Assembly: GCA_947567625.1 (NCBI GenBank)
Contig: CANONN010000001.1
Location: 124,001-188,000 of the forward strand
Origin: an uncultured Roseburia sp.
GTDB lineage: Bacteria > Bacillota > Clostridia > Lachnospirales > Lachnospiraceae
Direction of reading: 5' to 3'
DNA: 64,000 nucleotides
In this document: piece by piece, positions 25,498 to 38,616 of the stretch
How positions within the stretch are numbered: position 1 is the first letter of the stretch
Layout of the letters: each line of letters begins with the position of its first letter
Notes under the pieces: model-generated
Databases searched by the model: none
What the model was told of the DNA's origin: nothing
The model's input: only the letters and a program-made list of their open reading frames with translations
Position numbers and translations under genes: made by a program

Positions 25498-26868
25498 TTA
25501 TTGACGCAGCTTCTCAAACGACTGGTAGACATCCAAAATTCCATAGCCCCACTCGCGGTTCGGATAACTGCGGTCTACTGACTTTTGCGCGCCCCGAATC
25601 AGCATATTTTTAATGCCGGCGTTCGACAGCGTCGGCTGTTTCTGCTCTACGATCGCCCACTGCATCACCTGGGCCACCGCGCCGGCGGTGATTGCGGCCG
25701 CGGCGCTGGTGCCCGTAAAGGTCAGATAATTGCCGCGCAGCCCGGGTCCGTATATGTCGACGGCCGGAGCGACAAAATCGGGTTTGATCTCCCCTGCCGT
25801 CGTGTACCCTCTCCCGGAGTCCGCAAAAATACTGCGGTTTGCCACGCGGTATCCGCCCGCTGTAATCACCTGGCGCGCCGTCCCCGGCATCGTGATCGTC
25901 ATATCGGGGTTGGAGCGCAGGAAAAAGACATTGCCCCCCGTCATCTGCTGCATGGGCAGCCACATATTATAGAGCCCGGTCACAACGCTCTCGGGAAATA
26001 CCCGTATAATCCAAAGGCCCTTCCTGGGCTTGACAAAACGGATATAAATGAGCTGGCTTGCCGATGACTGCGCCTCAATCCGGTAATCGACCGCCACCGT
26101 CGTCCCCTCAAAGATAAACTCAAATATTTCCGAGCCCTTGCGCACCGGAATTTTGGGCACCTGCTCTCCCGTGGGAGAGATAATGGAAACGGCGTAAAGC
26201 TCCGGCTGGTCTGCCCACATCTCGATAAAAAAGCCGTCCATGTCATCCTCCACGGTGATCTCCACATCCTCATACTCCATCTCGCCCGTAATCCGCCCCT
26301 GAAAATGATGCCTGGTATTGGCCTCGTTGCCTGTGGCTGTCACGACCGATTTCTTCCTCCTGCTGCAAATAAAATTGAGATAGGAAGAGAGCGGGCCGTC
26401 TTTGCCGTGGCTCCCGGAACTGCTGCCCAGCGCGAGACAAATCACCAGCGGAACATTCATGTAATTTGCCAGATTGCTCAGATAGGTCACGCCCATCATG
26501 ATATCGTTTTCCTGAAAGGCTTCGACGCCGTCGGGAATAAAGTAAAAATCGCGCAGGTACTGCTTTGCCTCCTTGAGCTTGACGACACCGATATACGCCT
26601 CCGGCACTGCCCCGATAAAGCCGTTTTCCACATCCTCCCCGCCACAGGCCACGCCGGCCAAAAATGTACCGTGCCCGTTTTCATCCTGCTGCGGCACAAT
26701 CTCGTATGGATTGTCGCTTGCAAGCGCCCGGTCGATATCCAGCTTGGTATACTCTGCGCCATAGAGGATGCCGGTGGGCGGCGTCCCGTCCCGTATCGTC
26801 TGATCCCAGATACAGGCAATGCGCGACGTTCCGTCGGCATAGCGAAACAGCGGGTTGGTATAGTCTAT
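25498..26868 (-). CDS. S8 (Csp-like) protease, C-terminal 456 residues of a split gene
   Basis: Carries the catalytic His (DENGHGTFLAG) and Ser (TFTGTSAAAAITAGAV) but not the Asp. The open frame runs upstream of the GTG at 26697 as IDYTNPLFRYADGTSRIACI and stops being protease-like exactly at the GGGG core at 26869-26872. The missing 104 N-terminal residues are at 36438-36749. Joined, they give 560 residues, the usual size of clostridial CspB/CspBA-type subtilisins, which process the cortex hydrolase SleC during spore germination. A truncated product could start at the GTG, but would lack Asp. A 5'-linked M15 gene follows. Both halves are free of stops and frameshifts. Confidence 0.9.
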   Translation of the reverse strand: MDYTNPLFRYADGTSRIACIWDQTIRDGTPPTGILYGAEYTKLDIDRALASDNPYEIVPQQDENGHGTFLAGVACGGEDVENGFIGAVPEAYIGVVKLKEAKQYLRDFYFIPDGVEAFQENDIMMGVTYLSNLANYMNVPLVICLALGSSSGSHGKDGPLSSYLNFICSRRKKSVVTATGNEANTRHHFQGRITGEMEYEDVEITVEDDMDGFFIEMWADQPELYAVSIISPTGEQVPKIPVRKGSEIFEFIFEGTTVAVDYRIEAQSSASQLIYIRFVKPRKGLWIIRVFPESVVTGLYNMWLPMQQMTGGNVFFLRSNPDMTITMPGTARQVITAGGYRVANRSIFADSGRGYTTAGEIKPDFVAPAVDIYGPGLRGNYLTFTGTSAAAAITAGAVAQVMQWAIVEQKQPTLSNAGIKNMLIRGAQKSVDRSYPNREWGYGILDVYQSFEKLRQ

Positions 26869-26895
26869 CCCCTCTGGCGTTAAGCAAATGCAAAA
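26869..26895. other. Left attachment site (element-host junction)
   Basis: CCCC core followed by TCTG and the arm GCGTTAAGCAAATGCAA. The arm is an imperfect inverted copy of the right-end arm TTGCAATCTTTTAACACGC. Host sequence TATAGTCTAT lies on the left. Confidence 0.75.
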
Positions 26896-26931
26896 CTCTG
26901 GCCGCTATTTTTTCTCTATATTTTTGAAACA

Positions 26932-28440
26932 CTATTCCTTCCACCGGACCACAATCTCTTCTTCACTGTAGATCACTACCTCTTTAAGATACCGCCCGAC
27001 CTTCTCTGCTGTCAACATGACATCTTTGCCGGAAGACAATTTTTCATGGGGAAACGCCTGAATCTGTTCCTCTGTTTCCACAATCTGCTCCCGCAGCTCC
27101 CGTATCACTTGCCGCTGTTTTTCGATTTTTAATTGGAGAGAATTAAACTCCTTCCCGCCGTCTTTTGCATAGCGCTCGTAACGTTCGTATTGTTCCCGCT
27201 TTAGTCTGTCATATTTCGTTTGCGCCTGTTTTTGTTTTGCCAAAAGTTTCGCGCGCCTTGCCCAAGAGTCGTCGTCATGCCCGCAAATATCTTCTGCCGC
27301 GATGCCTCTCTCTTCCAGATACGACGAAAGCCGCTGCCGCACTACCCGTTCTACAGACAAGACGCTGGCCTTGCCCACACAAGCCTGCCGTCCGGTCACA
27401 TAACGATTTCCACAGGTAAAATACGGACTGCGCCCCTCCACGATGCGCAGGCTGCGCTCACAGCACCCGCACACAACCCGGCCCGCCAGCGGGTTGCTGT
27501 TTCCTGCCGTCTTCCTGCCGCGGCTTACGCCCCTGCTCTTTTGCACTTCATCAAAAATCTCCCGCGCGACGATGGGGGCGTGATGGTCCAAAATGATCTG
27601 CCAATTTGCCCTCGCTTTTAAAATACTGCGGCCCCCGACCTGATCTTTTTCCGTTTTGCCGTATGCGATATCCCCGGCGTACACCGGATTTCGCAAAATA
27701 CTGCAAACCGTGCTGCCACTCCAGCAAAACCGGCCCCCTTTGGGCGGCCGGACAGTCCCTCCTTTTCGGCTCTTAAACTCCATCGGCGTCGGGATATGCT
27801 CCTGATTCAGCTTCCTCGCTGTCTGCGTGGAAGTCACCCCTTTTACCGCAAGCGCAAATATCTTTCGCACCACCGCCGCCTCCTCCTCACAGATGACGAG
27901 CATATGCCTGTCATCCGCGGCTTTTTCATAGCCAAAGGGGGCGTTGGCGCTGATATACTGCCCGCTCTCTTTTTTTGCCAGCAGCGAAGATTTTACCTTC
28001 TGTGAGATGTCTTTGCTGTAAAGATCACAGAGAAGATTCTTAAAATTCACTGTCAAGTCGCTGCCCGCTTTGGCAGATACCGCGCTGTCGTAACGGTCGT
28101 TGATCGAGATGAAGCGGATTCCCAAAAAAGGAAAGATCTGCTCCAGATAATCCCCCACCTCCAGATAGTTCCTGCCAAATCGGGAAAAATCTTTTACCAC
28201 GATACAATCCAGTCTCCCGCCCCTCGCATCCTCCAAAAGCCTTTGTATGCCCGGGCGCAGAAAATGAGTCCCCGTATAACCGTCATCCTGATATTCCGTG
28301 ATCTGACAGTCCGCAAAATGAGCATCCACATACTCGCGGATTAACAGGCGCTGCATGGATATGCTGTTGCTCTCCGTCTGCGCCGTTTCGTCTGCCTTGG
28401 ACAGCCGCATGTAAGCGGCAACCCGTAACGTCTGTTCCAT
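26932..28440 (-). CDS. Large serine recombinase 1 (nearest the left end)
   Basis: 502 residues. N-terminal resolvase domain with YMRLSK (Ser14 as nucleophile), SNSISMQRLLI and DFSRFGRNYLEVG. A recombinase domain follows (AVKGVTSTQTARKLNQEHIPTP), then a zinc ribbon (CGCCERS ... CGNRYVTGRQAC), then a coiled coil (about 400-460) of the kind that controls integration versus excision. GGAGGGATGG precedes the ATG. Last gene of the recombinase operon, ending 37 nt inside the arm region. It should act on the two attachment sites, alone or with its two paralogues. Confidence 0.93.
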   Translation of the reverse strand: MEQTLRVAAYMRLSKADETAQTESNSISMQRLLIREYVDAHFADCQITEYQDDGYTGTHFLRPGIQRLLEDARGGRLDCIVVKDFSRFGRNYLEVGDYLEQIFPFLGIRFISINDRYDSAVSAKAGSDLTVNFKNLLCDLYSKDISQKVKSSLLAKKESGQYISANAPFGYEKAADDRHMLVICEEEAAVVRKIFALAVKGVTSTQTARKLNQEHIPTPMEFKSRKGGTVRPPKGGRFCWSGSTVCSILRNPVYAGDIAYGKTEKDQVGGRSILKARANWQIILDHHAPIVAREIFDEVQKSRGVSRGRKTAGNSNPLAGRVVCGCCERSLRIVEGRSPYFTCGNRYVTGRQACVGKASVLSVERVVRQRLSSYLEERGIAAEDICGHDDDSWARRAKLLAKQKQAQTKYDRLKREQYERYERYAKDGGKEFNSLQLKIEKQRQVIRELREQIVETEEQIQAFPHEKLSSGKDVMLTAEKVGRYLKEVVIYSEEEIVVRWKE

Positions 28441-28506
28441 ATTCCATCCCTCCCGGCCGTCCTTCTCGGATGAAATCTGCCTGCACGGCGCCTGCAGCGC
28501 CCCGCA

Positions 28507-30192
28507 CTACAAATCGCTCCCGCGAAATGCGAACATGATCTTCACCCGGTGGTCTGCGCACACCTCCATCCGGTCGATTAAGACACGGAGCACCTCCTCC
28601 CGCAGAACCGCTTCCCCGCTGCACTGCGCCAGGTCTCCTAAAAATTTGCACCGCTCTTTCTCCTCCCGCTTCAGATCGTCCACTCTGCGCTGCCAGCCCG
28701 CTTTTGCCATCGACACTTGGCGAAGCGACTGTTCGTTCTCCTGTCTGCGGCGCAAAAAATCATCCAGCGGCAGATTTCCTGTGCGATAGGCCAGATACAG
28801 CTCGCTTCCACGCCTCTTTCCCATCTCGATCTGCCGCCCGAGGCGAGCCAGCTTTTGCCCCGCCCTATTTCTGCGCGTCCTGGCCGCCCTCTGATATTCC
28901 GCGATGAGCCTCTCTGCCCGCACATCCGTCAAGGCAATTTCCCGGCGCAGGGCGGCTATTACCAGCTCATCCACTCTCTCCCTGGCGATGCTCTGTGCCG
29001 GGCAATGCAGATCGTCCAGCCTGCGGGCGGCAGAACAGCAGTATCGGTACCGGCAAGTCTCCTCCCCGGTCGCCGTCCGGCCTGCCTTTGCCACCCGCAC
29101 CATCGGCCGCCCGCATCGCCCGCAGAACAGCAACCCGGCATATCTATCATTCTCCCCGGTCGCCGTTTTGCACACACGTTCCGGCGACTGGCGGTATTGG
29201 GCCGCGGACAAAGCCAGCATGTCAGCCGCCCGGAAAAACGTATCCGCGCTGACAATCGGCTCATGCGTTTCGCACCGCATACGGCAATCCGCACCGCACG
29301 GCTCCCGGCGCTTTGCGGCGTTCGATTGTGTGCCGTCCGGTGTCTCCGGCAGCATCCCCCCCATATAAACGGGGTTCGTCAAAATAAACCGGAGCGTCGG
29401 TGTGGTCCACTGTTCGAGGGCATCCCCCGTCCGGCAGTACACCCGCCCGGTCTTTCGATAGACGCCAGGCCGCTGCACCCCCCGCTCAAACAGCGCTCCG
29501 GCAATTTGACGCATGTTTTTCCCGGCCAAAAACAGAGTGAAAATATCTTTTACGATCTCCGCCGGGCCGCAGGCGGCCGCAAGGGCCCGCTTCCCGTTCA
29601 CCCACTGAATCCGGTAGCCATAGGGCGCAATCCCCCCGGTATAATGCCCCTGTTCTTTGCGGCTGCGCCTTTCGGCCCTCACCTTTTGGGCAATGTCCCG
29701 CGCATACAGTTCATTAACCAGATTTTTTAAGTTGACTGTCAATTCATCGGCGGCTGCGCTCCCGAAGGTATCTATCCCATCTGCAAGAGCGATAAAACGG
29801 ACCCCGAGAAAGGGAAATATTTTCTGAATATAGTTTCCGGTCTCAATATGATCGCGTCCAAAACGGGATAAGTCTTTGACGATCACGCAGTCAATGCGCT
29901 TGTTTTTCACGTCCTCCATCATCCGCTCAAAGCCCTCCCGTTTAAAATTGGTGCCCGTTGTGCCCAGATCAAGGTAGCACTCACAGAGTTCCATCTCCGG
30001 GTGTTCGCTCAGATACTGCTTGGCGATAGCAATCTGGGTTTCAATCGATTCATTTTTGCGGGCTCTGCGACCGTCTTTCTCTCCGCAGGCTTTGGCCGCG
30101 TCCACCGAGAGCCTGGCATAAATTCCCACATGAAACTGCCTGTCACAAGAACCTCGCTCCGTATTTTTTTGTTTTGATGTGCGTGCCATCAC
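28507..30192 (-). CDS. Large serine recombinase 2
   Basis: 561 residues. Resolvase domain with IYARLSV (Ser29), an insertion after it (DAAKACGEKDGRRARKNES), then VKDLSRFGRDHIETGNYIQK. The zinc-ribbon region is CGRCGRPMVR ... YRYCCSAARR, followed by a basic coiled coil. Its ATG overlaps the stop of recombinase 3 in an ATGA (30189-30192), which implies translational coupling and perhaps a fixed protein ratio. Divergent enough from its neighbours not to be a recent duplicate. Confidence 0.93.
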   Translation of the reverse strand: MMARTSKQKNTERGSCDRQFHVGIYARLSVDAAKACGEKDGRRARKNESIETQIAIAKQYLSEHPEMELCECYLDLGTTGTNFKREGFERMMEDVKNKRIDCVIVKDLSRFGRDHIETGNYIQKIFPFLGVRFIALADGIDTFGSAAADELTVNLKNLVNELYARDIAQKVRAERRSRKEQGHYTGGIAPYGYRIQWVNGKRALAAACGPAEIVKDIFTLFLAGKNMRQIAGALFERGVQRPGVYRKTGRVYCRTGDALEQWTTPTLRFILTNPVYMGGMLPETPDGTQSNAAKRREPCGADCRMRCETHEPIVSADTFFRAADMLALSAAQYRQSPERVCKTATGENDRYAGLLFCGRCGRPMVRVAKAGRTATGEETCRYRYCCSAARRLDDLHCPAQSIARERVDELVIAALRREIALTDVRAERLIAEYQRAARTRRNRAGQKLARLGRQIEMGKRRGSELYLAYRTGNLPLDDFLRRRQENEQSLRQVSMAKAGWQRRVDDLKREEKERCKFLGDLAQCSGEAVLREEVLRVLIDRMEVCADHRVKIMFAFRGSDL

Positions 30193-31799
30193 GTTCCCTC
30201 CTGCCTTTTGTCTCCATATGGATTCTTCACGCGCAGTTCCAAAAGCACGCGTTTATCCTCATACACAAGGATACGGTTTATGAATGTCACCAGAACATCC
30301 CGGCTCAGTTTGGCGATCTTGGGCGCGGTTTGCATCTGTCTTAGCCTTGCCTGCGCCCCAGCCGCCGCACGCATCGTCTGCCGCATCGTCTGCTCCTGAC
30401 ATTCTATGGCCTCCCCTGCCGCCTGATACTGTGCCCGATATATCTCGCCAAACTCCTTATACTCTTCCTCCGTGAGGATGCCCCGCCTGAAATCTTCATA
30501 CAATCCGGCGCTTAGGGATTGATATTTTTTCCGCTCCCTCTTTTGTCTCTCGATTTCCCCCGCCAAAGACGCCGTCCCGTCCACATGCACCCGCAGATTG
30601 CGGATTTCCCGCCGCACATGTTCCAAATCCGCAAAGAGCGCCAGCTGCCGCCCAAGACCGGTGGACACTAGATGTATTAACCGCTCCTCGCAAATGCTGT
30701 GTCTCGTACAGCCAAGCCCCCTGTTTCTCGAAGCGCAGACAAAGCAAACCCTCTCGCTCCCCCGGTAGCGGTTTACCCTGCGAATCATCGGCTGCCCACA
30801 GTCCCCGCAGTAGAGGTATCCGGCAAACATATGATTTCTGTTTTTGCCGGCAGACGCCCGCGCGTCTACCTCAAGCAGCCTCTGCACCGTCAAAAAGTCC
30901 TCCGCAGACACCAAAGCCTCATGGGTATCTGCCACGCGCACCCACGCTTCCCTTGGCTTTTGCCGCGTGTGTTTCACTTTATGGCTGACCTTTTCGGTTT
31001 TTCCCTGCACCATCACGCCCGTGTACAGCTCGCTCGTCAAAATGCGTTTTACCGCCACCGCCGACCACCTGGCTTTTATATGGGTCGCAAACCCGGTATC
31101 ATATGTTTCTCCCAGTGATTTTTTGTATTCCAGCGGGGAGAGGACGCCCAGCGCGTTTAATTGTTCCGCTATGGCGATATTGCTAACTCCCGCGATTTTC
31201 CAGGCAAATATTTTTTTTACAATCCACGCCGCATACGGGTCCACCAGCAGGCGATGCCTTTTCATCGGGTCTTTGCGGTAGCCGTAGGCGGCAAAAGCGC
31301 CGATATATTCTCCCCGCTCCCGCTTCAGCTGCTGCTGACTTTTTACCTTTTTTGAAATATCGCTGCAATAGGCGTCATTGATAAAATTTTTCACCGGCAG
31401 CACCAGTGTTTTCTCATGAAAATCTGCGGTCAAAGAATCAAAATTGTCATTAATTGCGATAAAGCGCACGCAAAAAGCCGGGAAGGTCTTTTGAATCAAC
31501 CGCCCGGCCTCAATATAATCCCGCCCCAATCTCGACAGGTCCTTTACCATCACACAGTCAATGTGCCCCTGTGCGATGTCCTCCATCATCCGCCGAAACG
31601 AAGGTCTGTCAAAATTGGCCCCCGACCACCCGTCATCCACATAGATATCGTACAGTTCCATGTCGTCGTGCCTGCGAATGTAGGAGCAGATCAAATCTCT
31701 CTGGGAACCGATGCTGTTGCTTTCGGCGCCGCCGTCAGACACATCATCCCGGCTCAGCCGCAGATAGACGGCCACACGATAGAACGTTTTCGCTTCCAT
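30189..31799 (-). CDS. Large serine recombinase 3 (first of the trio)
   Basis: 536 residues. Resolvase domain with VYLRLSRDD (Ser16), SNSIGSQRDLICSYI and VKDLSRLGRDYIEAG. The recombinase domain includes YGYRKDPMKRHRLLVDP. The zinc ribbon is YCGDCGQPMIR ... CFVCASRNRGLGC, followed by a coiled coil. GAGGAGG precedes the ATG. It lies 48 nt after the DUF6870 gene and overlaps recombinase 2 by four bases. Confidence 0.93.
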   Translation of the reverse strand: MEAKTFYRVAVYLRLSRDDVSDGGAESNSIGSQRDLICSYIRRHDDMELYDIYVDDGWSGANFDRPSFRRMMEDIAQGHIDCVMVKDLSRLGRDYIEAGRLIQKTFPAFCVRFIAINDNFDSLTADFHEKTLVLPVKNFINDAYCSDISKKVKSQQQLKRERGEYIGAFAAYGYRKDPMKRHRLLVDPYAAWIVKKIFAWKIAGVSNIAIAEQLNALGVLSPLEYKKSLGETYDTGFATHIKARWSAVAVKRILTSELYTGVMVQGKTEKVSHKVKHTRQKPREAWVRVADTHEALVSAEDFLTVQRLLEVDARASAGKNRNHMFAGYLYCGDCGQPMIRRVNRYRGSERVCFVCASRNRGLGCTRHSICEERLIHLVSTGLGRQLALFADLEHVRREIRNLRVHVDGTASLAGEIERQKRERKKYQSLSAGLYEDFRRGILTEEEYKEFGEIYRAQYQAAGEAIECQEQTMRQTMRAAAGAQARLRQMQTAPKIAKLSRDVLVTFINRILVYEDKRVLLELRVKNPYGDKRQEGT

Positions 31800-31847
31800 G
31801 CTGTATTCCTCCTCTATATCTCTGACATTTTGCGCCCGCCGGTCAGC

Positions 31848-32111
31848 TCACAAAACCTCCGCCTGTTTTCTGGCCAGCGTAACCATGCGCTCCTCCAATG
31901 TCTCCTGTGCGCCATCCATATAGCCAACCTGTAAAATATACTCCCCCACATTCTGCGCATACGGATTGTTCACCTGCTCCAAAAATGACCGCACTCGTTC
32001 CCGTGGGCTCTCAGACGGGTCGATCACAATCTCATCCATATCTGTCAAATCTTCCCGCCGCAGCTCAGTGATCGGAATCTTCTGCAATTCGGCCAACCGT
32101 TCCTCTGTCAT
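31848..32111 (-). CDS. DUF6870-family small protein
   Basis: 87 residues from MTEERLAELQKI. The motifs LTDMDEIVIDP, ERVRSFLEQVNNPYAQNVGEY and ETLEERMVTLARKQ match the small DUF6870 proteins that I associate with serine-recombinase loci in Lachnospiraceae. The frame opens at 32201, but the conserved part starts here. Function unknown. As leader of the recombinase operon it might be a recombination directionality factor or a regulator; both are guesses. Confidence 0.75.
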   Translation of the reverse strand: MTEERLAELQKIPITELRREDLTDMDEIVIDPSESPRERVRSFLEQVNNPYAQNVGEYILQVGYMDGAQETLEERMVTLARKQAEVL

Positions 32112-32251
32112 ACAAGCGCCGCTTTCTTTTTTTCTATAATTTATGCGAAATACCGCCCGTCCCATGACTTCCGTGCATAAAACGGCGGAAAGACCGCACA
32201 CAGATCAAGAAGCGCCGCAAAATTGTCTCTTTTAAAAAATGGAACGGATGA

Positions 32252-32281
32252 TTGACAAGATGCGCACGGTCTGCTTATGAT
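32252..32281 (+). promoter_or_regulatory. Predicted promoter of the phosphopantetheinyl transferase gene
   Basis: TTGACA (32252-32257), 18-nt spacer, TATGAT (32276-32281). The 275-nt gap to the divergent DUF6870 gene holds nothing else that I can identify. Confidence 0.6.
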
Positions 32282-32386
32282 AACACTGACAGACAAACAT
32301 GCACGCCGCCAGAGCGCGAAAATGATTTCTGCGGCAAACGCCAGGGCGTTTCGTGTGAGATTTGAGATCAGAAATGTGAGGAAAAA

Positions 32387-33031
32387 ATGATACAGTTATA
32401 TGCCATAGACGTTCAGCGTCTGCCGGACCCAAAAGAGGAGCCCGGGATGCTCCGATATTTGCACGGCGAGCGCAAAATCCAAACCATGAAATATTTACAG
32501 ACAGATGACCGCAAAAGAAGTCTCGGGGCCGGTATCCTGCTCGGAGAAGTCCTGCCCCGCCACGGGGCCAGCCCGGAGGAGATCACGCGAAGCCCGCAGG
32601 GAAAGCCGCAGGCTGCGGGCATCTGTTTTAACCTCTCTCACTCGGGCCATCTGGCAATCTGTGCCGTGGGGCACAGGCCGGTCGGCTGCGATATCGAAAA
32701 AATTGCCCCAGAACCGGCTAAAGTGGGGGAACATTTTTTTCATCCGGGAGAAATCGCCCTCCTCAATCGGTGCGAAAAAGAGATGCGCGGCGAACTTTTT
32801 TTCCGCCTCTGGACCATCAAGGAGAGTTATCTAAAGATGACCGGGGAGGGGCTGCGCCGTCCGCTGAACAGTTTTGAAATTCTCATAGACCGGCAAGACG
32901 TGCAGGTGCGCCGCGGCGAAGAAATACTTCCCTGCCACATCAGGGAATACCCCGTTCCCGGATACCGAGTATCCGTGTGTGCACTGGAACAAAGCTTTGC
33001 CCCAAACATAGTATATATCAATCCTTCTTGA
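32387..33031 (+). CDS. Sfp-type 4'-phosphopantetheinyl transferase
   Basis: 214 residues. It has the family motifs FNLSHSGHLAICAVG, VGCDIE (Mg-binding Asp/Glu) and FFRLWTIKESYLKMTGEGL. It transfers phosphopantetheine from CoA to a Ser of carrier proteins, usually in NRPS, PKS or fatty-acid synthesis. No carrier protein or synthase is present in the element or elsewhere in the window, so its partner must be elsewhere. AGGAAAAA precedes the ATG. It is the only plus-strand gene in the element. Confidence 0.9.
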   Translation: MIQLYAIDVQRLPDPKEEPGMLRYLHGERKIQTMKYLQTDDRKRSLGAGILLGEVLPRHGASPEEITRSPQGKPQAAGICFNLSHSGHLAICAVGHRPVGCDIEKIAPEPAKVGEHFFHPGEIALLNRCEKEMRGELFFRLWTIKESYLKMTGEGLRRPLNSFEILIDRQDVQVRRGEEILPCHIREYPVPGYRVSVCALEQSFAPNIVYINPS

Positions 33032-33113
33032 GAAGGATCGGTTTTCGAGCACACTGACAAGGGCTCCCGACACAGGAAATACCGGTCGAAAGCCCCTCGC
33101 GCAGCAGCGCACG

Positions 33114-34211
33114 CTATTCATCACAATATTTTTTTACAATGGCCTCAAATTCCTGCCTTGATTCCGTAAACGCTTTTAACAGCTTGGGAGAAAAGACTCC
33201 GCTCTGTCCGTTTATAATCATCTGATAGGCTTTCTCTGTGTCATAAGCCGCCTTATATACCCTTTTTGAAGTGAGCGCATCATATACGTCGACCAGAGAT
33301 ACGATCTGCGCCGCTATGCTGATCGCCTCTCCCCGAAGGCCGTCCGGATAGCCGTTGCCGTCATATTTTTCATGGTGATGCCTGGCGATATCGTAGGCGT
33401 AGGAACAAAACTCTTCGTTGTCCAGGCGAATCACCTTCTCAATAATCTCCGCTCCCTTGGTCGTGTGCGATTTGATGACTTCATACTCATCATTCGTCAG
33501 TTTGCCGGCCTTTAAGATGATGCTGTCCGGTATGACAATCTTTCCGATATCATGAAGGGAAGATGCCCAGCCGATGGTTTCGATCTTTTCCTCTGACAGC
33601 TGATACTCGGGGAAGAGCCTGCTGACACTTTTTCCAAGACATAGGGTAAATTCGCGAATTCTCTTTACATGCTGTTCGGATTCGAGATTTCGGAATTCTA
33701 CAATGTTGCTCAAAGACTCGATCAGCACTTCTTTCATGTGCTTTTGCTTATCAGCCATCAGCTTTAACATGGCGTTTTGTTTCCGCAGCTTTTCGTTTTG
33801 ATTTTTAACGGTAAGCTCAAGCTGCACTTTATTTTGAAACACTTCGATCACATTTTCAACCAGCAGCCGCACGGCGTCGAGATGAAACGGCTTTCTGATA
33901 TAACTGACAATGCCATACTGATATCCGATTTTCTCATATTCTGTCGCCTGTTCACCGGTCAGCATGATAAACGGTATCTGATCTAAAAAATTCTTTTCAC
34001 TCAGGCGCTTTAACACCTGAAAATTATTCCTGGCCGGTATCATAAGATTGACCAGAATGACCGCAAGCTTTGACGCATGCTGCCTTAATATATCGATTCC
34101 TTCCTTTTCTGTAGCAACCTCAATAATTTTATATTTATCCCGAAAGATTTCGACCAGCTTTTTGCGGCTGTCCTCCTCATGTTCAAGTATCAAAATGGTA
34201 TCACGCAACAT
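33114..34211 (-). CDS. HD-GYP domain protein with degenerate receiver domain
   Basis: 365 residues. Residues 1-125 are a CheY-like receiver, but the acidic pair is altered (ILILEHEED) and the phosphoacceptor Asp is Asn55 (VILVNLMIP); Lys107 (RKPF) is kept. A coiled-coil linker spans about 125-165. The C-terminal HD-GYP domain has SLHDIGK (His220-Asp221) and HHHEKYDGNGYPDGLRG, so it could hydrolyse cyclic di-GMP or another cyclic dinucleotide. Phosphorylation control looks lost. It lies 22 nt downstream of the DUF342 gene, in one operon. Confidence 0.9.
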   Translation of the reverse strand: MLRDTILILEHEEDSRKKLVEIFRDKYKIIEVATEKEGIDILRQHASKLAVILVNLMIPARNNFQVLKRLSEKNFLDQIPFIMLTGEQATEYEKIGYQYGIVSYIRKPFHLDAVRLLVENVIEVFQNKVQLELTVKNQNEKLRKQNAMLKLMADKQKHMKEVLIESLSNIVEFRNLESEQHVKRIREFTLCLGKSVSRLFPEYQLSEEKIETIGWASSLHDIGKIVIPDSIILKAGKLTNDEYEVIKSHTTKGAEIIEKVIRLDNEEFCSYAYDIARHHHEKYDGNGYPDGLRGEAISIAAQIVSLVDVYDALTSKRVYKAAYDTEKAYQMIINGQSGVFSPKLLKAFTESRQEFEAIVKKYCDE

Positions 34212-34233
34212 CTCCTGTTATCCCTCTTCTTAT

Positions 34234-36306
34234 TTATAATTTCACCATTACTACATTCTTATTTCTAAGTTTAAAAACAACTCTGCTCACATGTGACGGC
34301 AGCACATATTTTACGGTATTGATCTCAATCAAGCTTCCCTCGTATGCGTTGCCCCTGACGATCACCGCCTTCATATCCTGTTCCGTCAGACTGGCGAGTT
34401 TGGAAACCTCGGCGTCCAGATCGGCCAGCTCCTTGTCCTTAGCGACAATCGCTGCATTTAACTTCTTGATGAGCGCCTCTGCCTGTTCCTTGTCGGGCGG
34501 CAGCGCCTGCAAAATATGATTCCACTGCCCTTCTAACATCCTAAGCTCTTCCAAAATCTGCTCTCTCTGCTGGGCAAACATCGCCTGTTTGCGATGGTAC
34601 AAGGCATTCTGCCCAATCTCGAGATATGTTTTAATACTGGACCGGTTGCCAAGATTATAGGTATCGACTCCCTTAACCGCACGCACCTTACCACCAAGAA
34701 GCATTCCCTTGCTGCCGGACACGATCACTTTCCCCATCGCGTTAATATTACTGTTCATAATATAATTGGCTCTTATGTCGCCCTCAGCGTCGATGTTAGC
34801 CGCTTCAAAAAAGCTGCCTGAGACATCGCCCTTGGCCTCGATGAAGCAGTCGTTCTTGGAACAGCTTCCCTTTTTAATCATGACACTGCCCCCGGCAACG
34901 AGCCTTCCAGCCTCCACATTGTGCTCGATGATAATATCTCCGGTAGCCGATATATAACCTCCCGAATAGACACTGCCGATCACATAGACCGAGCCGTCAA
35001 CCTCAAGCTTACCGGTGACAGCCGTCACATCCTCGCGCACGATGATCATGTTGGATATGATAACCAGGCCGTTGTGATACTCGAACTTTCCGCTTAACTT
35101 AGAACGATAAGTCACCCCGTCCTCGTCAATGGCAAATCCCTTTCCCTTCAGCGGCTTCTTTTCAGCCCCCTCACTGGCCTGAAGTATCTCGCCAAAGACA
35201 TTATGCCCGTCCACTCCCTTTTGCGCCGGATGGTAAAGAGCAATTTTTTGTCCTTCCTCCACCATCTCAAATGCCTCGATATTGACATAATCAACGCCTC
35301 CGTCTGGAAGCGGCGCCGGAATTCGGGGTAAGTCAAGACGCACAAAAAACTCATACCAGCCGTTCTTACCGTCCTTAGCGGGTACGCCCTCAGCAATCAA
35401 AATCTTTTCATTCATGCGCTTTTTCGTGATCATGTCGGTGATGGCTTCGCGCTTGATTCCTGTCACAATCCCTTTCTTTTTCAGCGCATCATAGATATCG
35501 TCTTCCGTGACCACATTGCCGGCAACCCATTGAATCAAAGCATACACTTTATTGCCGTCCTCTTCCACAGAAATCGTAAATTCTTTTTTGGTATACGCCG
35601 CGAGATCAATCCCCAGCTTGTCAGGCGTCATATAAGGACGTGTCTTTTCCTGCAACAGACGTTCGCGCTTCTCTTTCATATCCGAGCCGGAAAAAATCAG
35701 CTTGGCGTAAGAGGCCACATCCAGCCCCGCTTCCAGCCCCAGCCGTATTTCTTTCATCTGCCAGTGGCTGAACAGATAATTGGCGTAAAGCGACACGTTC
35801 CGTTTGTTCTCCAAACCCAGACGAATCTCCCGCATCTGCATCCAGTTGTACTTGGAATCGGCATACAAAGAAACCTTAAGTCCACCGAGCAACCCCATTC
35901 TAATCTCATAGATCTGCTGCATATACATATCGTCCGTGAGCCAGGCATTGATCGGAAGATTGTCCTCAAGCGCAAGACGAATCTGTTCCAATTCGTCATC
36001 TACAAATCCTCTGTCCAAATAAGGAGTCAGATCGATAGAAGAATAAATGGAAAGACGAATCTGTTTCATTGTCTCGTAACTGTAGGACGGGTCCGCATAA
36101 ACGGAAATATCCACCTTATCCTTAAGACCCATCTGAATCTGTTCCATCTGAAGCCTGTTAAGCTCAGAATGGGTATAATTTGAGACGTCCAGCCCCTCCT
36201 CTTTTCCAAAAGGAATCTCCTGATGCGGTTCTGTCATATATGCGATCTGTTCCATTGAAGTCAACTCCGGGTTCCGTGGCAGAGCTCCACCAGTCTTCAT
36301 AAACAA
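34234..36306 (-). CDS. DUF342/FapA-family protein with seven 26-residue N-terminal repeats
   Basis: 690 residues. After a 38-residue leader, residues 39-220 are seven tandem repeats of exactly 26 residues with the pattern (L)DVS-YAD-x(5)-QM-EIRLGLE, for example LKVSLYADSKYNWMQMREIR. Residues ~225-560 form the DUF342 (FapA) domain with a right-handed beta-helix core (GSVYSGGYISATGDIIIEHN). A coiled coil spans about 590-640. The C-terminal ~50 residues end in RNKNVVMVKL. No signal peptide. FapA proteins are poorly understood and affect cell-envelope or flagellar signalling. AGGAGG precedes the ATG. It heads the operon with the HD-GYP gene. Confidence 0.85.
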   Translation of the reverse strand: MFMKTGGALPRNPELTSMEQIAYMTEPHQEIPFGKEEGLDVSNYTHSELNRLQMEQIQMGLKDKVDISVYADPSYSYETMKQIRLSIYSSIDLTPYLDRGFVDDELEQIRLALEDNLPINAWLTDDMYMQQIYEIRMGLLGGLKVSLYADSKYNWMQMREIRLGLENKRNVSLYANYLFSHWQMKEIRLGLEAGLDVASYAKLIFSGSDMKEKRERLLQEKTRPYMTPDKLGIDLAAYTKKEFTISVEEDGNKVYALIQWVAGNVVTEDDIYDALKKKGIVTGIKREAITDMITKKRMNEKILIAEGVPAKDGKNGWYEFFVRLDLPRIPAPLPDGGVDYVNIEAFEMVEEGQKIALYHPAQKGVDGHNVFGEILQASEGAEKKPLKGKGFAIDEDGVTYRSKLSGKFEYHNGLVIISNMIIVREDVTAVTGKLEVDGSVYVIGSVYSGGYISATGDIIIEHNVEAGRLVAGGSVMIKKGSCSKNDCFIEAKGDVSGSFFEAANIDAEGDIRANYIMNSNINAMGKVIVSGSKGMLLGGKVRAVKGVDTYNLGNRSSIKTYLEIGQNALYHRKQAMFAQQREQILEELRMLEGQWNHILQALPPDKEQAEALIKKLNAAIVAKDKELADLDAEVSKLASLTEQDMKAVIVRGNAYEGSLIEINTVKYVLPSHVSRVVFKLRNKNVVMVKL

Positions 36307-36386
36307 CCGTCCTCCTAATTCCGCGATAATCTATAATATTATACTATATTCAGGCTCAAAAGTCTACATTTTTGCCTTTCCAGCTT

Positions 36387-36749
36387 TTAGAAGATATTGC
36401 AAGCGCGCACATTTTTTTGCAATCTTTTAACACGCTCCCCCGTATCGATAAAACCGACCAGCACACCGCTTCCCTTCAGCGACAGGACCGGCTGGTTTTG
36501 CAGCCGGATAATCCCGGACGCCTCCAGAGCCGCCGTATCCAAAAGGCCGTAACACTTTGGTATACCCGTATAGGTATAATTTGCAATAGCGATCGGCGCT
36601 AAGCCGGCTCTTGGGAAGAAAAAGATGTCGTAATCCTCCGACACGCGCTGCACACATCCCTGCAGCTCCCATGGCCCCTCCTGCACGCCGAACGGCACAA
36701 TAAAATCATAGTACTCTTCCGAGTACACTTCATCTCTGCAATCCGCCAT
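36387..36749 (-). CDS. S8 (Csp-like) protease, N-terminal fragment of the split gene
   Basis: The first 104 residues (36749-36438) are protease: an acidic N-terminus, FIVPFGVQEGP, and the catalytic Asp motif GSGVLVGFIDTG. The last 16 residues (ERVKRLQKNVRACNIF) are encoded by the element. As it stands it makes at most a 120-residue stub. The start ATG is directly preceded by seven T's and a hairpin that contains the only candidate RBS, GAGAGAG. The upstream gene is clpX. See the C-terminal fragment at 25498-26868. Confidence 0.88.
   Translation of the reverse strand: MADCRDEVYSEEYYDFIVPFGVQEGPWELQGCVQRVSEDYDIFFFPRAGLAPIAIANYTYTGIPKCYGLLDTAALEASGIIRLQNQPVLSLKGSGVLVGFIDTGERVKRLQKNVRACNIF
36417..36441. 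other. Right attachment site (element-host junction)
   Basis: Arm TTGCAATCTTTTAACACGC (36417-36435), then TC and the CCCC core (36438-36441), then host sequence GTATCGATAAAACC, which encodes GFIDT of the S8 protease on the minus strand. Confidence 0.75.
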
Positions 36750-36795
36750 AAAAAAACTCTCTCATCTATTTTGTCTATACTAATAAATGAGAGAG
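36750..36795 (-). terminator. Terminator-like hairpin abutting the S8 protease start codon
   Basis: Minus strand CTCTCTCAT / ATGAGAGAG (36795-36787 and 36765-36757, 21-nt loop) followed by seven T's and then the ATG at 36749. It may end the clpX transcript and also hide the S8 gene RBS. Confidence 0.65.
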
Positions 36796-36819
36796 CTGCA
36801 TGTTCTATTCTGAAAAATT

Positions 36820-36938: not shown

Positions 36939-38450
36939 TTAAGGGAGCGCCGGCTGTAAATGATCGGCCGCTATGCCAAAGCTTCCGCGCAGGTTTATGA
37001 GCGGCCCGCCGGTTTTCTCTACATAATCCCTGGTGATCGTCACCATACCGATATTGTCGTCTTTGGGTATTTCATACATGATATCGAGCATCAATTCCTC
37101 GATGACTGCACGCAGCGCACGGGCTCCGACTTTCTTCTCCTTCGCCTTCTCGGCAATCGCATAGAGGGCCTCGTCCTCAAATACCAGCTTTACCTCATCC
37201 ATGGCAAGCAGCTTGGTATATTGCTTGACGATCGCATTCTTAGGCTCCTTTAAGATCTGTACCAGCGTGTCTATGGTCAGGGCTTCGAGCGTAAACAGAA
37301 TCGGCAGACGCCCCAAAAACTCGGGAATCATGCCAAATTTGCGCACGTCCTCGACCGTCACCTTGGACAATAGGTTCTCGTCCTTGTCGTATTCGTCCTT
37401 TAAGGTCGAGCCAAACCCGATTGAAGACTGCTTGTTGAGCCGCTCCTTGATGATCTCCGACAGCTCGGGAAATGCGCCGCCGCAGATAAAGAGGATATTT
37501 TTGGTGTTGATCGTCGTCATCGGCACCATGGCGTTTTTGCTGCTTGCCCCGACAGGCACTTCGACCTCGGCGCCCTCGAGCAGCTTTAACATTCCCTGCT
37601 GTACGGATTCGCCGCTGACGTCGCGCTGGTTGGCGTTGCGCTTTTTGGCAATCTTGTCGATCTCGTCGATAAATATGATGCCCTGCTCCGCGCGGTCCAC
37701 GTCATTCCCCGCCGCCGCGAGCAGCTTGCTCACCACGCTCTCGATATCGTCCCCGATATACCCGGCCTCCGTCAGCGACGTGGCGTCCGTGATGGCGAGC
37801 GGCACATCCAAAAGCTTTGCCAGCGTCTTCACCATATAAGTCTTGCCGCAGCCCGTCGGGCCGATCATCAGCATATTGGACTTCTCGATCTCGACGTCGT
37901 CTTTGCGGTCGGACGCGATACGCTTGTAGTGGTTATAGACCGCCACGGACATGACTTTTTTGGCCTGCTCCTGCCCGACGATGTACTCATCGAGCGACGC
38001 CTTGATCTTATGCGGAGCGGGAATCTTTTTCAGGTCAAAAAGCGGCTGTGCCTCCTCGCTCTTTTTTTTCTTTTTGACGCGCTGGCTCCCCGGTATCATG
38101 CCCTGTAAATCCGACAGGTTGATCATGCTGATATTGGGGATTTTATTTCCCCTGCCAAAAGGCGGCATCCCCATGACATCATCCATGGAAAAACCGCTGC
38201 CGTTCATACCGTCAAAGGTCTTTTGCATACAATCCTGGCAGATGCAGATATCGCTCGGTATTTTTATCATTTTTCCCGCCACATGTTCCGGCCTGCGGCA
38301 TATGTAGCATATATCCTCGTACTCTTCTTCCTTTTCTGTGCCCTTCTCTTCCTTGACCTCCTGGGAGACTAACGTAAATTCTTCGGCTTCCCCCGATGAT
38401 GACGCATCCTTTTTATCACTGTCGTCAATGACTTCCCTAAAATCATTCAT
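36939..38450 (-). CDS. clpX: ATP-dependent Clp protease ATP-binding subunit ClpX
   Basis: AAA+ unfoldase that feeds proteins to ClpP. 503 residues, longer than the usual ~420; the extra length is an acidic N-terminal ~45 residues and a linker rich in Gly, Met and Lys. Zinc finger Cys48/51/71/74. Walker A GPTGCGKT (197-204), Walker B GIIFIDEIDKI (about 257-267), pore loop GYIGDD. The start is taken at MNDFREV (38450), with GGAG 11 nt upstream; the frame opens further at 38585. clpP is not adjacent, so this may be a second, divergent ClpX. Confidence 0.92.
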   Translation of the reverse strand: MNDFREVIDDSDKKDASSSGEAEEFTLVSQEVKEEKGTEKEEEYEDICYICRRPEHVAGKMIKIPSDICICQDCMQKTFDGMNGSGFSMDDVMGMPPFGRGNKIPNISMINLSDLQGMIPGSQRVKKKKKSEEAQPLFDLKKIPAPHKIKASLDEYIVGQEQAKKVMSVAVYNHYKRIASDRKDDVEIEKSNMLMIGPTGCGKTYMVKTLAKLLDVPLAITDATSLTEAGYIGDDIESVVSKLLAAAGNDVDRAEQGIIFIDEIDKIAKKRNANQRDVSGESVQQGMLKLLEGAEVEVPVGASSKNAMVPMTTINTKNILFICGGAFPELSEIIKERLNKQSSIGFGSTLKDEYDKDENLLSKVTVEDVRKFGMIPEFLGRLPILFTLEALTIDTLVQILKEPKNAIVKQYTKLLAMDEVKLVFEDEALYAIAEKAKEKKVGARALRAVIEELMLDIMYEIPKDDNIGMVTITRDYVEKTGGPLINLRGSFGIAADHLQPALP

Positions 38451-38544
38451 GCGCAAAAATCTCCGTTCTGTTCTCATACATTGTATCGTCAGGCGGCATC
38501 CTTCGACTGTCACGAATCCTGACTGACCGCTACTCACTGGTTCT

Positions 38545-38573
38545 ATTATAAAACAACAAAGATTATCCCACAA
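38545..38573 (-). promoter_or_regulatory. Predicted sigma-A promoter of clpX
   Basis: Minus strand TTGTGG (38573-38568), 17-nt spacer, TATAAT (38550-38545). Confidence 0.6.
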
Positions 38574-38616
38574 GAACATTATCACTTTTTATATTTTTTT
38601 CATCTTTACGGCAAAA

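Follow-up and report, generated by a model that had tools for sequence, protein, structure and literature searches.

Recurrent insertion of serine recombinase elements at the active-site glycine codon of csp-type protease genes

DNA rearrangements during sporulation are known in sigK, spsM, gerE, spoVFB and yabG, and SPbeta provides the precedent of an element recruited to the sporulation programme. The gin element in gerE of Bacillus cereus ATCC10987 spans 28.6 kb, carries three serine recombinases and is described as having no phage genes; its excision is specific to sporulation and is carried out by GirC with the 42-residue GirX (PMC5595907). In C. difficile, excision of skin is described as limited to the mother cell by a small directionality factor that sigma-E and SpoIIID control (PMC5025042). 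Integrated and excised forms of the yin element have both been observed in culture (PMC10747680). We analyzed a csp gene that is split by an insert in DNA from an uncultured Roseburia sp.; the whole 64,000-nucleotide stretch is referred to as the window. The closest known system is the gin element in gerE, which a sequence-only reading of the window had left unnamed when it cited skin, spsM and spoVFB as precedents.

The interrupted csp gene and its element

The N-terminal half of csp ends in GSGVLVGFIDTG, and the translation of the C-terminal half (26868-25498) opens with IDYTNPLFRYADGTSR. Joining the flanks in silico produced a 560-residue frame with a single stop, located at its end. The halves meet at one glycine codon of the catalytic D-T/S-G motif, and the triad of the rejoined protein is made up of D102 from the first half and H170 and S492 from the second (Table 1). 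Against NCBIfam, the rejoined protein matched CspBA (E = 1.5e-84) and CspC (2.2e-74), both below the curated cut-offs of the models, and in the PDB it matched CspB (4i0w, 7.9e-54) as well as several newer Csp chains. By these matches the split gene is a Csp-type S8 subtilase with the triad of an active protease, and its putative role in germination is assigned from its family. Translation and scripted joining reproduced the coordinates, the frames and the uninterrupted 560-residue join of the sequence-only reading, whose placement of Asp in the first part and of His and Ser in the second was likewise recovered, and whose proposal of a split Csp germination protease accords with the family and structure matches. 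That reading had joined the halves at one GGGG; the join holds, but the shared bases are only the GG of the glycine codon, and the neighboring Gs are one-sided. The other spore genes it had placed in the region are present elsewhere in the window as spore photoproduct lyase and SpoVAC/SpoVAEB.

Table 1. Features of the split csp locus, in positions of the window.
Feature	Position	Strand	Description
csp N-half	36438..36749	-	104 codons, catalytic Asp102; ORF extends 16 codons into element
csp C-half	25498..26871	-	from Gly codon to natural stop; His170 and Ser492
clpX-like host gene	36939..38585	-	marks csp locus in relatives
Integrative element	26872..36440	-	9,569 bp, one GG core copy included
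attL	36415..36446	-	GATACGGG junction and left arm GCGTGTTAA...TTGCAAAA; core GG 36440-36439
attR	26863..26895	-	right arm TTTTGCA...TTAACGC, CAGAG, core GG 26871-26870, then csp
R1, large serine recombinase	26932..28440	-	502 aa
R2, large serine recombinase	28507..30192	-	561 aa
R3, large serine recombinase	30189..31799	-	536 aa
DUF6870 protein	31848..32111	-	likely start ATG 32111, 87 aa; precedes R3
Promoter-like motif	32138..32166	-	CATGGGAC-N13-CATAAATT, 26 nt before ATG 32111; degenerate copy
Cargo: 4'-phosphopantetheinyl transferase	32387..33031	+	
Cargo: response regulator with HD-GYP domain	33114..34211	-	
Cargo: FapA (DUF342) protein	34234..36306	-	

A hairpin at 36738-36800 on the minus strand (-19.2 kcal/mol, z -4.0), followed by seven T, adjoins the csp start codon. 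It covers the likely csp ribosome site, and a similar repeat was seen by eye in relatives.

The insert is almost certainly a site-specific element. R1, R2 and R3 are full length, each with Resolvase, Recombinase and zinc-ribbon domains by Pfam; in the PDB, residues 4-119 of R1 are closest to TnpX (2mhc, 9.3e-24). An imperfect inverted repeat, with arms read by eye as TTTTGCA..TTAACGC and GCGTGTTAA..TTGCAAAA, surrounds the crossover. None of seven element ORFs tested against Pfam belongs to a phage family, and by this measure the element is not a prophage. The DUF6870 protein, a name for which we found no paper in the literature, is a candidate directionality factor by position alone. A recombinase-bearing element able to excise precisely had been proposed from sequence, and the three serine recombinases, the GG core and the 9,569-bp insert agree with that proposal; we consider an ability to excise precisely probable. 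The same genome holds a second DUF6870 and recombinase trio (L075; G000:C31:25021-30487), with no csp match nearby.

Recurrence, target choice and spread

We searched for csp in 61 genomes, comprising its own, 36 of the same genus and 24 others of the order, and obtained a match in 50. A single alignment spans the insertion site in 27 of the 36 same-genus genomes, two of them with a flagged stop; the other nine include three without a match, two with broken contigs and four with pieces in one open frame. The csp pieces of G017 stop at residue 105 and restart at 164, yet lie 3 bases apart in one open frame. An insert at csp residue 104 was seen in none of the 36 genus relatives. Gene-by-gene comparison of G004, G035, G019 and G028 found none of the genes of the insert at the csp locus; the clpX-like gene adjoins csp in the first three and lies 0.9 kb before it in G028. 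The nonsynonymous rate dN on the split-csp branch was larger in six of seven comparisons, but slightly so (0.062-0.086 versus 0.046-0.071). Because dS is saturated in the csp comparisons, dN/dS cannot date the insertion.

The genome of the window also contains a second, intact csp with 35% identity to the split one. About 30 of the 36 genus relatives have this second type (~600 residues; some copies partial) as well, and the two genes therefore look non-redundant. Each of nine family carriers of an interrupted csp that were checked has a further csp, some of these being incomplete or having a flagged stop.

Scans for relatives of R1 returned 85 loci, 62 in a genome contig collection and 23 in IMG/VR. 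At two of them csp directly follows R1, starting in both from residue 104: L082, in the genome of an uncultured bacterium (G088), and L083, in Eubacterium sp. 14-2 (G087). Among 397 genomes of the family, 12 (own included) contain R1 relatives at E <= 1e-110, and seven (own included) contain R3 relatives at E <= 1e-180. A pattern built on attR matched 12 of the 397 genomes, compared with two for the reversed control; nine of these 12 are csp insertions and three are not. With G402, which was added separately, its site departing from the attR pattern further inside csp, interrupted csp genes number 10 in the 397 family genomes, and with G087 and G088 from another collection they total 12 genomes. 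We rejected G133, G196 and G167 as csp insertions, having found no csp or recombinase relative in a 40-kb stretch of each; in G133 the pattern bases fall in an unrelated frame. A second match in G361, to a shorter attR pattern, was attributed to chance, and IMG/VR yielded 60 raw matches of the attR pattern.

The recurrence of insertion at an active-site codon across genera is our main new result. In all 12 interrupted genes the C-half starts at the glycine codon of the D-T/S-G motif. N-halves ending at this codon were found in six (own, G361, G087, G426, G402 and G219), although in G402 and G219 they are on a different contig from the C-half. The attR side reads TTRACRNNAGAG followed by GG in 12 of 12, the pattern itself having served to find some of them, and the attL side reads GG followed by GGAGYGTGTTA in five of the six N-halves, the sixth (G219) reading GGGGAACGAGTTA. 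Because attR junctions differ in the third base of this codon, the crossover is placed at the GG, and rejoining yields glycine regardless. With the GG as the first two bases of the glycine codon, excision would leave no scar.

The catalytic His is retained in all 12 split genes and the catalytic Ser in 11, G402 having Cys; G328 aligns poorly at this position. Three reference rows (G004_A, G020_A and G426_A), read on the wrong strand, were left out of this active-site comparison. The alignment of the C-half extends at least to residue 545 in 10 of the 12, and the C-halves of G087 and G280 end early, the recombinases of G087 being open. Transposase-like ORFs were seen by eye past the truncated C-half of G087. 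In G280, a second csp (L327; G280:C171, 6870-11540, reversed stretch) is cut at the same glycine codon by a different insert of 4.7 kb, in which MoxR- and DUF58-like ORFs were named by eye and no recombinase was seen; the stretch contains 193 N.

These comparisons bear on several expectations of the sequence-only reading. It had called for a search of other Lachnospiraceae, which turned up intact copies without the element in the genus and insertions with related elements in others. Its suggestion that an intact paralog would make restoration of the gene unnecessary is right in that a second csp exists (35% identity), but carries little weight as a refutation, relatives keeping both types. Decayed halves in relatives, which it had counted against programmed excision, were found as truncation in two of 12 C-halves (G087 and G280), against 10 of 12 that reach at least residue 545.

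The cargo of the elements varies. G361, from another genus, has the identical locus order (clpX, then csp) and the same FapA/HD-GYP cargo pair, with 74% identity in FapA. Relatives of the HD-GYP cargo occur in the elements of G361 (75%), G426 (43%) and G066 (41%), HD-GYP regulators being the cargo of G426. The G087 element carries an NRPS with a reductase-type domain and STAS proteins, and that of G088 carries STAS, MatE, a SpoIIE-domain phosphatase and an anti-sigma-type ATPase. The phosphopantetheinyl transferase in the element of the window is the kind of enzyme that arms synthetases such as the NRPS of the G087 element (L083).

A tree was built from 41 R1 relatives, of which 15 were counted as inserted in S8 genes; the site was unreadable in G195, G466 and L084, and for G328, with csp and recombinases on separate contigs, linkage was assumed. 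The 15 S8-gene rows form one clade together with G195, G466 and L084 (100/99). Within it, 11 csp-inserted rows cluster with two unread rows at modest support (89/87), and four rows located in a second subtilase of ~300 residues cluster with G195 (95/89). G195 is an unexplained exception: csp was not found in its 25 kb, and a search with the ~300-residue subtilase gave no match. Outside the clade, no S8 match lies within 18 kb of three trios (G659, G110 and G402b), and the remaining R1 rows were compared against csp only. Because its phylogeny follows the target gene, we take R1 as the likely integrase.

Between G219 and G284, which belong to two genera, R1 is 87% and R3 93% identical, and the csp C-halves are 32% identical; between G219 and G328, the corresponding values are 96%, 98% and 39%. 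Recombinases 87-98% identical thus accompany csp genes only 32-39% alike, with linkage assumed for G328, on which ground vertical inheritance of the split was rejected, and sequence comparison indicates that the elements are horizontally mobile. Both csp types carry insertions, and the insertions are sporadic in the family (10 of 397 genomes). The sequence-only reading had offered programmed rearrangement and mobile insertion as a choice: the R1 and R3 identities, set against those of csp, bear out mobility, but the two options are not exclusive.

Several neighboring cases were noted. In G086 (L072, L337, L338; 7796-30737, reversed stretch), two insertions interrupt the ~300-residue subtilase gene, whose three pieces are all open: a two-recombinase element sits in the DTG motif, and a stretch that by eye resembles a prophage and has a serine recombinase of its own sits in the GHGTHV motif. 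An earlier contrast between csp and supposedly decayed subtilase C-halves in G086 and G084 was dropped, the gene of G086 being split twice with open pieces. G066 has an open subtilase C-half beyond 16 kb of DNA; its element (L074, L339; 13125-23325, reversed stretch), in the ~300-residue subtilase, carries by eye an apparent chemosensory gene set with HD-GYP regulators. Collagen-repeat (BclA-like) ORFs are found near five of 85 loci scanned, namely L085, L088, L092 and L124, which form one trio clade, and L146; they adjoin the element in the first three and lie about 5 kb away in L124.

Excision and its possible link to sporulation

A motif of the form [CA]ATARGACA-N-[CA]ATANNNT, derived from the very sequences counted, precedes DUF6870-R3-R2-R1 in 12 of 13 S8-gene elements, nine of which are in csp and four in the other subtilase. 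A loosened form is present in all 13, the copy of the window being weaker and degenerate. The SpoIIID box of B. subtilis has the consensus WWRRACARNY; the exact box is found in eight of 13 elements, versus 1.0 expected, and in five of nine csp members. For C. difficile, the SpoIIID box is given as KRTAACARK (PMC5025042). In that species, sigma-E promoters are described with ATA at -35, a CATA-type -10 and a spacing of about 16-18 bp, and csp as being under sigma-E control (PMC3789822). The upstream motif resembles these promoters. A loose sigma-E form, in which C or A is allowed as the first base of the -10, occurs in 12 of 13 S8-gene elements (0.67 expected), and the strict form in four of 13 regions (0.24 expected); the motif copies are homologous, and these counts are not independent. 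At the place of the motif itself the strict form occurs in three of 13, all in the other subtilase, the fourth case (G361) lying elsewhere in the region, and no csp member has it there (0 of 9). The copy in the window fits neither the loose sigma-E form nor the SpoIIID form, and the 190 nt upstream of csp show no sigma-E-like site in any of nine genomes checked. Among 30 DUF6870 loci that lack a csp match, the loose form occurs in 14, the strict form in six and the SpoIIID box in 12 (1.9 expected); sporulation control may extend to all elements of this kind, or else the motif is of another nature.

The best explanation overall, to which we assign a probability of about 0.45, is that a large serine recombinase, most likely R1, moves an integrative element that occupies the csp glycine codon and is excised in the sporulating mother cell. 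The recombinase would recognize the DNA that encodes the catalytic DTG motif of Csp proteases, and insertion would proceed by exchange at the GG. Recombination of attL with attR, aided by a directionality factor for which the DUF6870 protein is a candidate, would then restore csp scarlessly. Such excision would take place in the mother cell, where csp would be needed and loss of the element would be costless, as for gin and skin. We counted in favor of this explanation the intact orthologs of the genus, the recurrence at one codon, the shared att sequences with their imperfect inverted repeat, the grouping of R1 by target gene, the full-length recombinases, the retained His and Ser, the mostly complete C-halves, the upstream motifs, the sigma-E control of csp described in C. 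difficile (PMC3789822) and the spore genes of the window. Counted against it were the absence of attP, the failure of the strict sigma-E form, the poor fit of the copy in the window, the similar motifs at DUF6870 loci with no csp match, the lack of a sigma-E-like site before csp, the truncated C-halves, the sporadic distribution and the larger dN. The attP junction pattern is absent from the 397 family genomes and from IMG/VR, where assemblies would seldom show it. The odds that excision is tied to sporulation were lowered from 0.5 to 0.45 because in no csp member does the motif conform to the strict sigma-E form.

Programmed excision is a possibility about even with that of a plain selfish element, for which DTG codons would be a safe and widespread landing site, excision would occur at a low rate for transfer and independently of sporulation, and the host would lose one Csp or tolerate its loss. 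Horizontal spread and insertion into both csp types fit such an element, as do the insertion of elements with a sister branch of R1 into another subtilase, the sporadic presence in the family, the further csp of all nine carriers checked and of the genome of the window, and an ORF in the G402 element that by eye looks ParA-like. Relatives of R1 are also found on viral contigs, at 23 IMG/VR loci with identities of up to 42%. Plasmid records contribute 437 and phage records 532, every one of them below 60% identity; 80% of R1 is covered in 12 of the phage records and in none of the plasmid ones. A search with the R3 of L083 gave no relative on viral contigs. The open halves with active-site residues in most carriers speak against this reading, although a recent insertion would explain them too. 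The sigma-E- and SpoIIID-like motifs of many members also weigh against a purely selfish element, and gin, skin and SPbeta are precedents of elements drawn into the sporulation programme.

A recent dead insertion that has lost excision, leaving csp to become a pseudogene, is improbable. It would account for the truncated C-halves of G087, with its transposase-like ORFs beyond, and of G280, and for the degenerate motif before the recombinases in the window, but three full-length recombinases and two open csp halves are found there, and little extra amino acid change has accrued on the branch, where saturated dS would hide a very recent loss. An assembly artifact is in effect refuted: the genome is a draft in 110 contigs, but the split sits within a 201-kb contig and the same kind of insertion occurs at the same codon in 11 other genomes.

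A wider extension of the mother-cell explanation, which we regard as unlikely, is that elements with DUF6870 and a recombinase trio constitute, across Lachnospiraceae and their neighbors, a wide class of sporulation intervening elements. Integrase clades would be dedicated to different mother-cell genes (csp; a collagen-repeat BclA-like gene), the operon would be driven by sigma-E and SpoIIID, and signaling and peptide-synthesis cargo would be kept through growth and shed only in the dying mother cell. If this were true, programmed DNA rearrangement in germination genes would be common among these spore-formers.

Related integrases land repeatedly in the active-site codon of germination proteases, and do so in many genera of a single family. 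Should excision be tied to sporulation, a mobile element controls the ability to germinate in these bacteria, and the recurrent insertions into two csp types are natural replicates of mobile DNA joining a developmental programme. Even if it is not, a codon whose alteration would kill the protease offers a stable and scarless landing site.

Comparison with known systems

The literature searches brought up no paper whose title or abstract deals with the interruption of csp by an element, subscription papers being mostly beyond the reach of the search. The main text of a survey of serine recombinase targets, as far as it was available, has no word starting with peptidase (PMC10083194).

TnpX and other large serine recombinases provide a first comparison, TnpX being nearest in the PDB to the N-terminal domain of R1; here three recombinases are found together, with csp as the target. 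The yin element in yabG is likewise a serine recombinase element in the gene of a spore protease, but it is described as a prophage, from one isolate, and its target is a cysteine protease (PMC10747680). The skin element in C. difficile sigK shares with the csp element a serine recombinase and a position within a mother-cell gene, and differs in being prophage-like, with one recombinase described and sigK as the target (PMC5025042).

By its anatomy the csp element appears gin-like, splitting a putative spore gene in a frame that could be restored. As far as gin is described (PMC5595907), both are non-phage elements with three serine recombinase genes and an inverted-repeat att site, both split a spore gene whose frame is precisely restored in gin and restorable here, and both have variable cargo and occur in several strains. 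They differ in the crossover and in size, gin having a 9-bp overlap and 28.6 kb in gerE and the csp element a GG core and 9,569 bp. In gin, girC lies apart from girAB, whereas the recombinase genes of the csp element stand side by side behind DUF6870; the directionality factor of gin, GirX, has 42 aa, compared with 87 aa for the DUF6870 candidate. Excision during sporulation has been demonstrated for gin and is a possibility for the csp element. Finally, the csp element differs from gin in its target, which in several genera is the active-site codon of genes from one protease family.
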